Position numbers and translations under genes: made by a program. Below, piece after piece: positions 45,071 to 49,271 of a stretch of 64,000 bases of DNA (position 1 is its first letter; every line of letters begins with the position of its first letter). The stretch is taken from contig JAGOTD010000002.1 in assembly GCA_018061945.1 (NCBI GenBank), positions 248,001-312,000 of the forward strand. The letters are read 5' to 3'. A model generated the notes under the pieces. The model made no database searches, was not told the DNA's origin, and was given only the letters and a program-made list of their open reading frames with translations. Source of the stretch: Candidatus Peribacteraceae bacterium. Its GTDB lineage: Bacteria > Patescibacteriota > Gracilibacteria > Peribacterales > Peribacteraceae.

Positions 45071-45100
45071 TTGACCAAGATATCATTAGCACTCTATAAT
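45071..45100 (+). promoter_or_regulatory. dnaK promoter (TTGACC-18-TATAAT)
   Basis: TTGACC (45071-45076) and TATAAT (45095-45100) are spaced by 18 nt. The -10 lies exactly in the 9-nt spacer of the CIRCE element, so HrcA binding would cover it. The start site would be near 45107, leaving a leader of about 40 nt. Confidence 0.8.
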
Positions 45101-45112
45101 ACCGAGTGCTAA
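45086..45112 (+). promoter_or_regulatory. CIRCE operator (HrcA site)
   Basis: A perfect consensus CIRCE, TTAGCACTC-N9-GAGTGCTAA, lies 36 nt before the dnaK start. This predicts repression of dnaK by HrcA and release on heat shock. hrcA itself is outside the window. Confidence 0.95.
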
Positions 45113-45148: not shown

Positions 45149-47074
45149 ATGAGCAAAATTATCGGAATCGACCTTGGTACCACAAACTCTTGTGTCGCAG
45201 TCATCGAAGGAGGGGAACCACAGGTTATCCCCAATGCCGAAGGCAATAACACCACGCCGTCTATTGTTGCCTTTAAGGACAACGACGTTCTCGTCGGTAT
45301 TGCCGCCAAACGTCAGGCTGTGACGAACCCAAAAAATACGATTTACTCAGCCAAACGTTTTGTCGGTCACCGTTTCGAGGAAGTGGAAAAGGACGCCAAA
45401 ATGGTTCCCTACGAGGTAAAAGCCGGCAAAGAAGGACGCGCAGTGATCAACGCCAACGGCAAAGATATGTTCCCACAGGAAATCAGCGCCAAAGTGCTGA
45501 TGAAACTCAAGAAAGACGCCGAAGCGTTTTTGGGCCAGCCAGTCACCAAAGCGGTTATCACGGTTCCAGCCTATTTTGACGATAATCAGCGCCAGGCGAC
45601 CAAAGAAGCAGGCGAAATCGCCGGACTGGAAGTCGTACGTATTATCAATGAACCAACTGCTGCCACTCTCGCGTACGGACTCGATAAGAAGAAAGAAGAG
45701 AAAGTAATTGTCTACGACCTTGGCGGTGGAACATTCGACGTCACGGTTCTCGAAATTTCCGGTGACGGACACTTCGAAGTGCAGTCGACGAATGGTGATA
45801 CGCATTTGGGTGGCGACGACTTCGATCAGACAATTGTCGATTGGCTCCTAGCTGAATTTAAAAAAGACCAGGGTGTTGATCTTTCGAAAGATAAAATCGC
45901 TCTGCAGCGCCTCAAGGAAGCTGCGGAAAAAGCAAAGATCGAATTGAGCTCGGCTAACGAAACCGAAATCAACCTGCCTTTCATTACGGCTGATGCGACT
46001 GGCCCTAAGCACCTGACAGTCAAACTGGCGCGTTCGAAACTGGAAGCATTGGTATCGGATTTGATTGAACGCACAGCCAAGCCCTGCTTGAACGCACTCA
46101 AAGATGCAGGCTATTCCAAGGATCAGATCGATGAGGTAGTCCTCGTCGGAGGCATGACACGCATGCCAGCCGTCCAGGCCAAAGTAAAAGAACTGTTTGG
46201 AAAGGAACCGCACAAAGGAGTGAATCCGGACGAAGTGGTGGCAATCGGTGCCGCTATCCAAGCTGGTCAAATCGGCGGAGATATTAACCGCGATATTACG
46301 ATTGTGGACGTTATTCCGCTCTCTGTCGGTATCGAGACAATGGGCGGCATCGCAACCAAAGTCATCGAGAGAAACATGAAGATCCCAACCTCCAAGAGCC
46401 AGGTCTTTTCGACCGCGGCTGATAATCAGACATCGGTAGAAATCAACGTCGTCCAAGGCGAGCGCGAAATGGCCGCCGACAACAAATCCCTCGGCCGATT
46501 TATCTTAGATGGCATCTTGCCCGCTCCACGCGGCATGCCACAGGTGGAAGTCACATTCGATATCGATACCAACGGACTGCTGCATGTGAAAGCCAAAGAC
46601 AAAGGCACGGGCAAAGAGCAACACATCAGCATCCAAGGTTCGACCGGACTTTCCAAAGAAGAAGTCGAACGCATGAAGAAAGACGCAGAAGTAAACGCCG
46701 ATGCCGACAAGAAGAAGAAAGAGTTGATCGAAGCACGTAACACAGCAGACAGTCTTATCTTCTCGCTCGACAAACAAATGCGCGAGCACGACGCCAAGAT
46801 CAACGACGACACCAAGAAGAAGGTGAATGAAAAAATGAATGCGCTGCGCGACTTACTTAAGAAAGAAGATGCGACAGCCGAGGAAATCAAAAAACTCACA
46901 GAAGAGACAGGAGTAGCAGCACAGGAAATCGGCAAATTGATTTACGAGGAAGCCCAGAAGAAAGAAGCCGAAGCTACCAAGGCAGGCGAAAAGGGTGACA
47001 AGAAAGATGAAAAAGTCGTCGACGCCGAGGTAGTGGATGAGAAAGATGAGAAGAAGAAAGATGATGACAAGTAA
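45149..47074 (+). CDS. dnaK: Chaperone DnaK (Hsp70)
   Basis: DnaK is an ATP-dependent chaperone that binds unfolded hydrophobic segments. The 641-residue protein opens [19 protein letters not shown]. It has the ATPase signatures [15 protein letters not shown] and [14 protein letters not shown], the substrate-binding domain beginning after [11 protein letters not shown], and a helical lid with an acidic/Lys tail ([12 protein letters not shown]). It is controlled by CIRCE and followed by two hairpins. grpE and dnaJ are not adjacent, which is unusual for the operon. Confidence 0.98.
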
Positions 47075-47089
47075 TAATCCGTCCGCAGG

Positions 47090-47159
47090 CGAGGTTCCGC
47101 AACCTCGCTGGATCTAGCAGGAAAATCTCCACAGCGGCAAGCCGAGGCTTGCCGCTGTG
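47090..47159 (+). terminator. Two hairpins after dnaK
   Basis: GCGAGGTT-CCGC-AACCTCGC (47090-47109) is followed by a perfect 14-bp stem, CACAGCGGCAAGCC-GA-GGCTTGCCGCTGTG (47130-47159), then TTCTTGATT. The second stem is the likely dnaK terminator. Confidence 0.65.
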
Positions 47160-47205
47160 TTCTTGATTGATCACAAAATACTTGCTGGGTATGCTCTACA
47201 TTCCA

Positions 47206-47688
47206 ATGTCCACGCACGCTCATCACACGGCCGACGATATCGAAGTCCTTCGCGAGATGATTCGGTTAGCGGAAAAACGACGTGATGAGGAGTTACAGAT
47301 GATAGAAAGAATCAATCAATATAATCTCGCACTTATAGGATTTTCAGGATCATTCCTTTCTCTGCTAGTAACAGTAAAATTTCCAATTATAGTCGTGATA
47401 GTTGCCGGCGCTCTATTACTTGTATCTCTTACAGTTTCACTTACTACCATTCGACCAAAAGTTCTTAAAGGTGGCGCTATTGATCTTCGGTATGATATAG
47501 ATCTAGCAAAAGAAGGTAAGATTTCCACTCTCCACCATTACTTACTCGAAACTGCAGATGTTATTCAAGAGGCAGCTGCAAAGGCTGGCCAACGATCATT
47601 TGAAAAGAAAAATGGTACTATTTATTCAGCCCTTTTTCTTGCCTTAGCTTTAGCTGCTACTTATACTCTCTACATCATCTATGCCTAA
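47206..47688 (+). CDS. Small membrane protein preceding the micro-ORFs
   Basis: The 160-residue protein is not recognised. It has an N-terminal charged helix (IEVLREMIRLAEKRRDEELQ), two adjacent transmembrane helices (about 39-80), a cytoplasmic helical segment rich in Ala/Glu, and a final helix (about 138-158). ATG 47206 gives a hydrophilic start; TATGCT lies 10 nt upstream. Its stop TAA lies inside the first codons of the next micro-ORF (ATGCCTAAG), so ribosomes finishing here are placed to start on it. It may be the export or partner protein of the peptides, which is inference only. Confidence 0.7.
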   Translation: MSTHAHHTADDIEVLREMIRLAEKRRDEELQMIERINQYNLALIGFSGSFLSLLVTVKFPIIVVIVAGALLLVSLTVSLTTIRPKVLKGGAIDLRYDIDLAKEGKISTLHHYLLETADVIQEAAAKAGQRSFEKKNGTIYSALFLALALAATYTLYIIYA

Positions 47689-47716
47689 GCCAGGAAACAC
47701 CACCACAGGCCTTTAA
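47681..47716 (+). CDS. Micro-ORF 1, peptide MPKPGNTTTGL
   Basis: An 11-codon frame runs ATG to TAA and overlaps the stop of the membrane protein gene by 8 nt, which favours translational coupling. Its peptide differs from that of micro-ORF 3 (MPKIGNTTTGI) at only two residues, while five other codons differ synonymously (AAG/AAA, AAC/AAT, ACC/ACT twice, ACA/ACC). That pattern indicates selection on the peptide itself. I know no such peptide family. Confidence 0.6.
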   Translation: MPKPGNTTTGL

Positions 47717-47737
47717 AAGATTCTCTATCTTTTTGTA

Positions 47738-47815
47738 ATGCCAAAAACAGCTAATCCAGTTCGCGCACCAGCTCAATCTATGCCACGACCAGGCGACATG
47801 GTTGAAGGTCTGTAA
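47738..47815 (+). CDS. Micro-ORF 2, 25-residue peptide
   Basis: The 25-codon frame encodes MPKTANPVRAPAQS followed by MPRPGDMVEGL. Its last 11 residues align position by position with micro-ORF 1 (Met, Pro, basic, Pro, Gly, Asn/Asp, three variable, Gly, Leu, stop). It also starts with MPK like the others. It lies 21 nt after micro-ORF 1. Function is unknown; a signal peptide, leader or modified peptide are all possible. Confidence 0.5.
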   Translation: MPKTANPVRAPAQSMPRPGDMVEGL

Positions 47816-47830
47816 GCTTTAATATCAATC

Positions 47831-47866
47831 ATGCCTAAAATTGGAAATACTACTACCGGCATCTAA
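47831..47866 (+). CDS. Micro-ORF 3, peptide MPKIGNTTTGI
   Basis: The 11-codon frame lies 15 nt after micro-ORF 2. It is the near-twin of micro-ORF 1 at the protein level but not at the DNA level. The segment after micro-ORF 2 (GTAAGCTTTAATA) is echoed after this one (CGTAAGCTTTTTAATA, about 47892), so the unit seems to have arisen by tandem duplication long enough ago for silent sites to diverge. Confidence 0.6.
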   Translation: MPKIGNTTTGI

Positions 47867-47942
47867 AAACCAATATCATCAACCATTTGTCGTAAGCTTT
47901 TTAATAACCCCGACCATCCTTACAATTTTCCCGACTATTTCC

Positions 47943-47970
47943 TTGTCGGAATGTTCGGTGTGACTATAAT
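47943..47970 (+). promoter_or_regulatory. Promoter TTGTCG-16-TATAAT of the small basic peptide gene
   Basis: TTGTCG (47943-47948) and TATAAT (47965-47970) are spaced by 16 nt, with the ATG 36 nt further on. Confidence 0.55.
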
Positions 47971-48006
47971 CAGATTTCACTCTCGATTTTGACACATACA
48001 AAACAC

Positions 48007-48135
48007 ATGTATTTCCTTCCCGCCGAACGTATGCTTTTTAAGCTCCTCACCCGCGCAATCCGCAAACTCATTGCAACATTCAGTCCAAAGCCTGCGTACA
48101 GCTATGTACCGGTTCGGATACAGAGAAGGAAGTAA
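48007..48135 (+). CDS. Small basic amphipathic peptide (42 residues)
   Basis: The frame encodes MYFLPAERMLFKLLTRAI then RKLIATFSPKPAYSYV and a very basic end (RIQRRK). It has its own promoter 36 nt upstream and a clean terminator 22 nt downstream, forming a complete short transcription unit. The first half is predicted to be an amphipathic cationic helix. The family is not recognised. A membrane-active or nucleic-acid-binding peptide is conceivable. Confidence 0.55.
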   Translation: MYFLPAERMLFKLLTRAIRKLIATFSPKPAYSYVPVRIQRRK

Positions 48136-48157
48136 TAGATGTATTTAATACCAAATA

Positions 48158-48181
48158 GACCGCTCACCCGAGCGGTCTTTT
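48158..48181 (+). terminator. Rho-independent terminator of the basic peptide gene
   Basis: GACCGCTC-ACCC-GAGCGGTC is followed by TTTT: an 8-bp GC-rich stem and a T-run. Confidence 0.85.
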
Positions 48182-48224
48182 GATTATTGCAGATTCTAAT
48201 TTCTGATCCACGTGTTGGCTACTA

Positions 48225-48266
48225 TTCCTCTGGTTCATCTGCATCGTCTGTTTCTTCTGGTTCCTT
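48225..48266. repeat. Single arm of GAAACAGAGGAACCA word repeat downstream of gap
   Basis: CCTCTGGTTCATCTGCATCG and TCTGTTTCTTCTGGTTCC are reverse complements of the words at 5706-5733. Only one orientation is present here, and it abuts the GAPDH stop codon as the pyk arm abuts the pyk stop. Confidence 0.6.
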
Positions 48267-49271
48267 TTATAACTTCCCTCCCACATACCCCGCCAATTCA
48301 ACCAAACGATTGCTATAGCCCCACTCATTGTCGTACCACGAGAATGTTTTAACCAAAGTTCCTCCGATTACCTGCGTGAGCTCGGCATCAATAATCGAAC
48401 TACGCGGATCTCCGACAAAATCCTTGAGAACGAGTGGTTTGGTTTCGTAACCGAGAATGCCTTTCATGGCTCCTTCGGATGCCTTCTTGAACGCAGCATT
48501 CACTTCTTCTTTGGTCGTCGGCTTTTTGGTGATAACAGTGAGATCGGTAATACTACCGGTTGGCGTAGGTACACGCATCGACATACCGTTCATCTTTCCA
48601 TTCAGCTCCGGAATCACAAGCCCGATTGCTTTGGCGGCACCGGTGCTGCTTGGAACAATATTCACCGCCGCAGCTCGCGCACGACGTAAATCCTTGTGCG
48701 GAAGATCGAGTAAGTTCTGGTCATTGGTATAACTATGAATCGTCGTCATCAAACCGTATTCGATACCAAAGGAATCATTCAAAACCTTGGCCATAGGCGC
48801 CAAACAATTTGTGGTGCACGATGCATTCGAAATGATGTTCATCGTTTTTGGATCATATGTTTCATGATTCACGCCGATACAAAACGTGCCATCGACTGCA
48901 TCCTTGGAAGGAGCGGAGATAATTACTTTCTTCGCGCCTGCTTTTATATGCGCCGATGCACCTTCTTTGCTCGTAAAAAATCCTGTGCATTCCAACACAA
49001 CATCAACTTTTAGATCTTTGTGCGGCAGAAGTGAAGGATCTTTTTGTGCAGTGATCGTAATGTCGCCATGCTTGGTCTTAAACTTGTCGCCCTCAACGCG
49101 CATTTGAGCGTCGAAGTGGCCAAACGACGAATCGTACTCAAACAAGTGAGCGAGAGTTGCCGGATCTGTCAGATCATTGATAAGCACAACATTTATATCC
49201 GGATGGCTCTGCATAATGATGCGAAGCGCCTGCCGACCAATACGACCGAAACCGTTGATGGCGATGTTCAT
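48267..49271 (-). CDS. gap: Glyceraldehyde-3-phosphate dehydrogenase
   Basis: This enzyme oxidises and phosphorylates glyceraldehyde-3-phosphate with NAD in glycolysis. The 334 residues include the Rossmann start INGFGRIGRQALR, the active-site SNASCTTNCLAP with catalytic Cys, SSTGAAKAIGLV, and SWYDNEWGYSNRLVEL at the C-terminus. It is of type I and normal length. Its start is followed outward by an inverted GTAGGTAAG repeat. Confidence 0.98.
   Translation of the reverse strand: MNIAINGFGRIGRQALRIIMQSHPDINVVLINDLTDPATLAHLFEYDSSFGHFDAQMRVEGDKFKTKHGDITITAQKDPSLLPHKDLKVDVVLECTGFFTSKEGASAHIKAGAKKVIISAPSKDAVDGTFCIGVNHETYDPKTMNIISNASCTTNCLAPMAKVLNDSFGIEYGLMTTIHSYTNDQNLLDLPHKDLRRARAAAVNIVPSSTGAAKAIGLVIPELNGKMNGMSMRVPTPTGSITDLTVITKKPTTKEEVNAAFKKASEGAMKGILGYETKPLVLKDFVGDPRSSIIDAELTQVIGGTLVKTFSWYDNEWGYSNRLVELAGYVGGKL

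Follow-up and report, generated by a model that had tools for sequence, protein, structure and literature searches.

Between dnaK and gap in the 1.37-Mb genome of a Candidatus Peribacteraceae bacterium lies a run of open reading frames only eleven codons long, which raises the question of whether such frames can encode a peptide family under selection and, if so, how the peptides would be made and used. The window analysed here is a stretch of 64,000 nucleotides, corresponding to positions 248001–312000 of a 319,617-base contig. Within it, dnaK (45149–47074) and gap (48267–49271, minus strand) form the upstream and downstream flanks of an interval (47075–48266) which holds a gene for a 160-residue membrane protein, the micro-ORFs and a 34-residue ORF. 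An intrinsic terminator follows dnaK on the plus strand (47130–47165; stem 47130–47159, 13 pairs). Its stem is retained with altered sequence in an alignment with the equivalent locus of a relative, and it is predicted to set the cassette apart from the dnaK transcript. A terminator scan of the locus detected none between the membrane gene and the array; one is predicted 3' of the 34-residue ORF (48157–48178). Upstream of dnaK itself is a perfect CIRCE element (45086–45112; TTAGCACTC-N9-GAGTGCTAA), so HrcA-type heat-shock control of this gene is likely.

The membrane-protein gene (47206–47688) and the array are on the plus strand. The first micro-ORF, W1 (47681–47716; MPKPGNTTTGL, then a stop), begins at the ATG of ATGCCTAA and therefore overlaps the TAA of the membrane gene by 8 nt. 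It is followed by a 25-residue frame (47738–47815; MPKTANPVRAPAQSMPRPGDMVEGL, then a stop) with an inner ATG at 47780, and by W4 (47831–47866; MPKIGNTTTGI, then a stop). Re-reading the ORFs upheld the coordinates and peptides of the preliminary description, together with its remark that the codons of the outer two differ mostly synonymously: W1 and W4 differ at seven codons, of which five are changed synonymously. Its middle peptide, MPRPGDMVEGL, was also read correctly, but the account of that frame was incomplete, since two copies are fused in it. W2, one of the four window copies, has no stop and reads on into core W3 (47780–47815), which has its own in-frame ATG and stop. All window copies share one frame. 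The repeated spacer pieces noted earlier, GTAAGCTTT..TAATA, are found at 47812 and 47892, in the window genome but not in the relative.

The similarity of W1 and W4 is the strongest micro-ORF match in the contig and is beyond chance. By summed BLOSUM62 score, W1/W4 reaches 49, W1/W3 36 and a third pair within the array 24. The comparison took in the 1,729 micro-ORFs on the forward strand of the 319,617-base contig, where the best pair outside the array scores 25; in four Markov-shuffled contigs no pair reached 22. A search of the source genome with a degenerate 36-nt pattern found nothing similar elsewhere. The GNTTTG-[LIM] DNA pattern likewise occurs nowhere else in either genome, and mimicry of another cell protein was set aside.

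As the finding had been made on one genome, the nearest relative provides an independent check. This is a Candidatus Peregrinibacteria MAG (CALMES010000106.1), the one other genome of the genus examined. It carries the same membrane gene (91% amino acid identity), followed at the same place by a six-copy array: G1 MPKPGNTTTGL, G2 MPKPANTTSGI, G3 MPRPGSITEGL, G4 MPKIGNITTDI, G5 KPRLGSISEGLS and G6 MPKIGTIATGL, with start-to-start spacings of 56, 48, 47, 45 and 47 nt. Both the membrane gene and the frames beside it are thus kept, with synonymous changes and five of the six copies intact, which favours the earlier proposal. G5, on the minus strand of the relative's contig, has AAG for ATG and TCA for the stop, and is probably a dead copy. 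The counterpart of the W2–W3 fusion is a pair of separate ORFs, MPKPANTTSGI and MPRPGSITEGL, each with its stop. W1 and G1 are identical at 36 of 36 nt, with the next spacer diverged; W4 and G4 are identical at 30 of 36, with four synonymous and two nonsynonymous codon changes. In a tree of the cores W4 is sister to G4 and W3 groups with G3 and G5, matching the positional expectation. Copy-specific residues are common to the two species: Arg3 (CGA in the window, AGA in the relative) and Glu9 in copy 3, and Ile4 in copy 4. In both genomes, too, the first micro-ORF overlaps the membrane stop. The relative's copies lie in different frames, so the spacers cannot form one coding sequence with the copies; a single long protein read through the stops, as the common frame in the window might have allowed, was rejected on the same ground.

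Across both genomes the nine eleven-codon cores (eight distinct, each 36 nt) align without indels and follow the pattern M-P-[KR]-x-[GA]-[NSDT]-x-x-x-[GD]-[LI], most columns of which tolerate more than one residue; the spacers between them vary from 8 to 21 nt with no fixed frame. Variation is concentrated at third codon positions (mean entropy over the eight distinct cores 0.48, 0.78 and 1.21 bits for positions 1, 2 and 3; column permutation, p = 0.0013). In 20,000 runs of a neutral simulation along a K2P tree of the cores, started from an observed intact copy, at least seven of eight ORFs stayed intact with p = 0.002, or 0.054 (not significant) at half branch lengths. A third-position bias as strong arose with p = 0.0013 (0.0007 at half branch lengths), and at neither branch-length scale did any of the 20,000 runs show both properties. 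Concatenated orthologous cores gave dN 0.115 and dS 0.505, a ratio of about 0.23, which is rough because each core has 36 nt and few changes; paralog dS is saturated among the cores. The preliminary description had proposed tandem duplication with the peptide under purifying selection, and third-position bias, indel-free cores and a dN/dS of about 0.2 across orthologous copies all agree with it. Selection at the level of the peptide sequence is thus well supported for the array by sequence comparison of two genomes.

These data bear directly on the idea that the array is a non-coding tandem repeat, a set of DNA- or RNA-binding sites whose open frames are incidental. The origin by tandem duplication is clear, and a GCC near the start and a GGC near the end, common to the copies, would allow a stem of 3–5 bp in some. 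The third-position bias and the intact frames speak against this idea, as does the distribution of indels, which are many in the spacers and zero in the cores. Moreover, amino acid identity among the cores is highest in the coding frame (0.50, against 0.29 and 0.34 in the other forward frames, which carry stops), and folding is no better than in shuffled sequences (z from -1.22 to 0.39 for single units and 0.00 for the whole 311-nt region). Such a repeat is, on balance, highly improbable. An RNA element was rejected on the same folding results for units and whole array and the want of an Rfam match at threshold; Rfam gave sub-threshold matches only, one at the terminator after dnaK and another at the end of dnaK itself.

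Selection on the peptides may also lie in the past, with the array now being lost copy by copy. The lost start of G5, the lost stop of W2 and the difference in copy number (six versus four) would fit such a decaying remnant. Against this, W1 has stayed identical over 36 nt and W4 and G4 have changed mostly synonymously since the species split, so that decay is an improbable account. The two losses do indicate that copies turn over, and since one of six copies in the relative lacks a start and one of four in the window lacks a stop, loss of a single copy appears to be tolerated.

The locus offers some indications of how the peptides might be translated. A Shine-Dalgarno-like motif precedes 5 of 44 long ORFs, counting any candidate start, compared with 16% in the control, and none precedes the micro-ORFs. 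Several genes of the window have TATAAT 6–8 nt before the ATG, which suggests leaderless mRNAs. A promoter-like TTGATC-N17-TATGCT, recognised by eye and not listed by a consensus scan, ends 10 nt before the ATG of the membrane gene; a TTG at 47167 would yield a longer ORF. A -10 box in front of each micro-ORF was considered and dismissed: a TATAAT stands before G3 and G4, where it is formed by the last codon and stop ahead of them, and most other copies have nothing comparable. Beyond W1, each micro-ORF starts 8–21 nt past the previous stop. An overlap of -8 nt is among the stop-to-start spacings enriched in neighbouring genes (PMC12548453), and in one study cited there coupling still occurs at spacings as wide as +25 nt. 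With W1 overlapping the membrane stop by 8 nt and later starts within the reported coupling range, termination-reinitiation is plausible. The translational coupling suggested in the preliminary description is consistent with this arrangement; the overlap on which it was founded is real and conserved, and the coupling itself is a matter of inference.

Based on the promoter-like sequence and the absence of Shine-Dalgarno enrichment, transcription would start just before the membrane gene to give an mRNA that is leaderless or nearly so. Ribosomes ending at the membrane TAA could then reinitiate at the overlapping ATG and make the first peptide, stop, and reinitiate at the next ATG 8–21 nt on, so that the array would be translated in series. 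Taken jointly, a near-leaderless mRNA, serial reinitiation and selection at the peptide level make up a reading that we regard as probable, if by no wide measure. A competing view is that translation alone matters: ribosomes kept on the 3' part of the mRNA would tune the membrane gene or the 34-residue ORF, through stability or expression, in the manner of regulatory leader or decoy ORFs. The short stop-to-start spacers, the 8-nt overlap and the location between two genes all suit it, and bacteria are known to have short ORFs that act in cis (for example PMC8092293). It predicts, however, that ATG and stop are kept, and not residues with synonymous change, whereas Arg3, Glu9 and Ile4 are kept between the species; we therefore consider it unlikely.

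Under serial reinitiation with selected peptides, what the products would do is a further question. Methionine aminopeptidase removes Met before Pro, and since all copies have Pro in second place, Met removal is expected; it would leave hydrophilic 10-residue peptides starting with Pro. The array peptides end in Leu or Ile and have no signal peptide. It is attractive to consider a role for them in the cytosol as short ligands, whose target would most likely be the membrane protein translated with them and whose copy variants would fine-tune this protein. This is our preferred guess, though a speculative one in which we place limited trust.

A different function was raised in the preliminary description, which offered a signal, leader or processed peptide system with the membrane protein as partner. 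In its fullest form, the peptides would be exported signals, the membrane protein their exporter or receptor, and the variants a source of specificity. Multiple variants of one short peptide do resemble the duplicated pheromone peptides of RRNPPA systems (PMC11343458). Yet the peptides have no signal sequence, no processing gene is seen nearby, the cassette includes no protease or regulator gene, and no transporter or receptor domain was recognised in the membrane protein, so that neither the signalling role nor the partnership gained support, and exported signals are the least probable of the readings weighed here.

The membrane protein is itself an orphan. Three apparent hydrophobic helices are present, with hydropathy peaks at residues 61–79 and 142–160 and the first helix of the hairpin placed by eye at about 41–59. 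The gene is conserved in the relative (NG86 dN 0.047, dS about 0.69). No confident family was found in Pfam, NCBIfam, PADLOC, PHROGs or PDB sequences, no relative outside the genus had a convincing E-value, and the protein is absent from the plasmids and phages searched; a profile gave weak class-level matches (E 0.004–0.008) of partial coverage only. Profile searches did not recognise it as an 8xMP, PycTM or SLATT-like effector, with scores of 15.1 bits against a curated cut-off of 30 for 8xMP and 8.1 against 27.2 for PycTM, and no SLATT match; PADLOC gave none either. A structure model built from two sequences has a pLDDT of 52, too low to support a comparison of folds.

The closest likeness to a known system is with the insect gene tarsal-less / polished rice / mille-pattes (tal/pri/mlpt), whose polycistronic mRNA contains a number of 36-nt ORFs, the 11-residue products of which are almost the same, and a longer ORF in which the motif occurs twice (PMC3136413). 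The window array is likewise a series of ORFs on one strand, two of them encoding 11 residues and one a 25-residue ORF of two units, on what would be a shared transcript. The insect core motif LDPTGxY is absent from the window peptides (MP[KR]x[GA]....), and the insect system is eukaryotic and differs in start context and cell biology. The sequences are unrelated, and the likeness is one of convergent architecture, not homology. By analogy, the array could be a bacterial counterpart of tal/pri, in which separately translated leaderless variants of 10–11 residues from a polycistronic mRNA act together to control the membrane protein encoded with them, in a Patescibacterium whose translation is of the non-Shine-Dalgarno kind; we put this forward as a tentative possibility.

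Bacterial systems offer looser parallels. In the tandem RRNPPA pheromones (Rap-Phr, Bacillus phages) one locus yields several variants of one short peptide (PMC11343458). Those variants lie inside one secreted, proteolysed propeptide that acts with a cytosolic receptor, whereas the array peptides each have their own start and stop and no signal, and their neighbours, dnaK, the membrane orphan, the 34-residue ORF and gap, include no such receptor. The microcin C precursor gene mccA is likewise exceptionally short and encodes a leaderless peptide; it has a single 7-residue product with a C-terminal Asn, which is modified by an adenylating enzyme encoded alongside. The array peptides end in Leu or Ile, and inspection of the ORFs between 42000 and 54000, largely by eye, showed no adenylating enzyme or exporter. 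The type I toxin genes ibs and ldr are tandem very short ORFs for hydrophobic membrane peptides, with antisense RNAs; the array peptides are hydrophilic, and no Rfam match at or above the gathering score for a described antisense RNA was found at the locus. A literature phrase search for tandem arrays of small ORFs gave no match, which is weak evidence of novelty. As the preliminary description had held, the peptides match no known bacterial family in the libraries and literature searched, and on this basis family and array layout appear to be new in bacteria, which is not to claim a new mechanism. If translated, they would form an 11-codon gene family below the length limits of ordinary gene callers, in a lineage with non-Shine-Dalgarno translation and no cultivated members. 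It would follow that bacteria keep functional peptides this short in arrays, and the locus would be a clean case for studying serial termination-reinitiation and what peptides of some 10 residues can do.

The distribution of the array is narrow. A search with the degenerate 36-nt pattern covered genomes at three ranks, 74 from the family, 353 from the class and 380 from the phylum. Among the family and class genomes, the array was found only in the two of this genus, and the 380-genome phylum sample held none beyond the genus; no match was found in IMG/VR. Four other class matches to the pattern are unrelated, with TCA in place of the stop. The membrane gene, the array and the 34-residue ORF thus appear from these searches to be a low-GC cassette confined to the genus among the genomes searched, the membrane gene (40% GC) and array together having 40–43% GC against 50% for dnaK and 47% for gap. 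In the other family genomes examined, dnaK and gap are 2–100 nt apart or have 263–1273 nt of unrelated content between them. This variability between genera suggests that the junction is an insertion hotspot, and the simplest reading is that the cassette is a genus-specific insertion into it; we infer that it was acquired from outside. Some family genomes have SIR2-like, GIY-YIG or DUF559 proteins at the junction.

The third member of the cassette is the 34-residue ORF MLFKLLTRAIRKLIATFSPKPAYSYVPVRIQRRK (48031–48135, plus strand). Upstream of it, at 47930–47970 on the same strand, is an inverted repeat, CCGAC-N9-GTCGG, which is identical in both genomes and overlaps the -35 of a promoter-like TTGTCG-N16-TATAAT. 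The ORF has 69% identity in the relative and one weak match elsewhere (E 0.05) among the 74 family genomes, and its product has a cationic, amphipathic-looking start.
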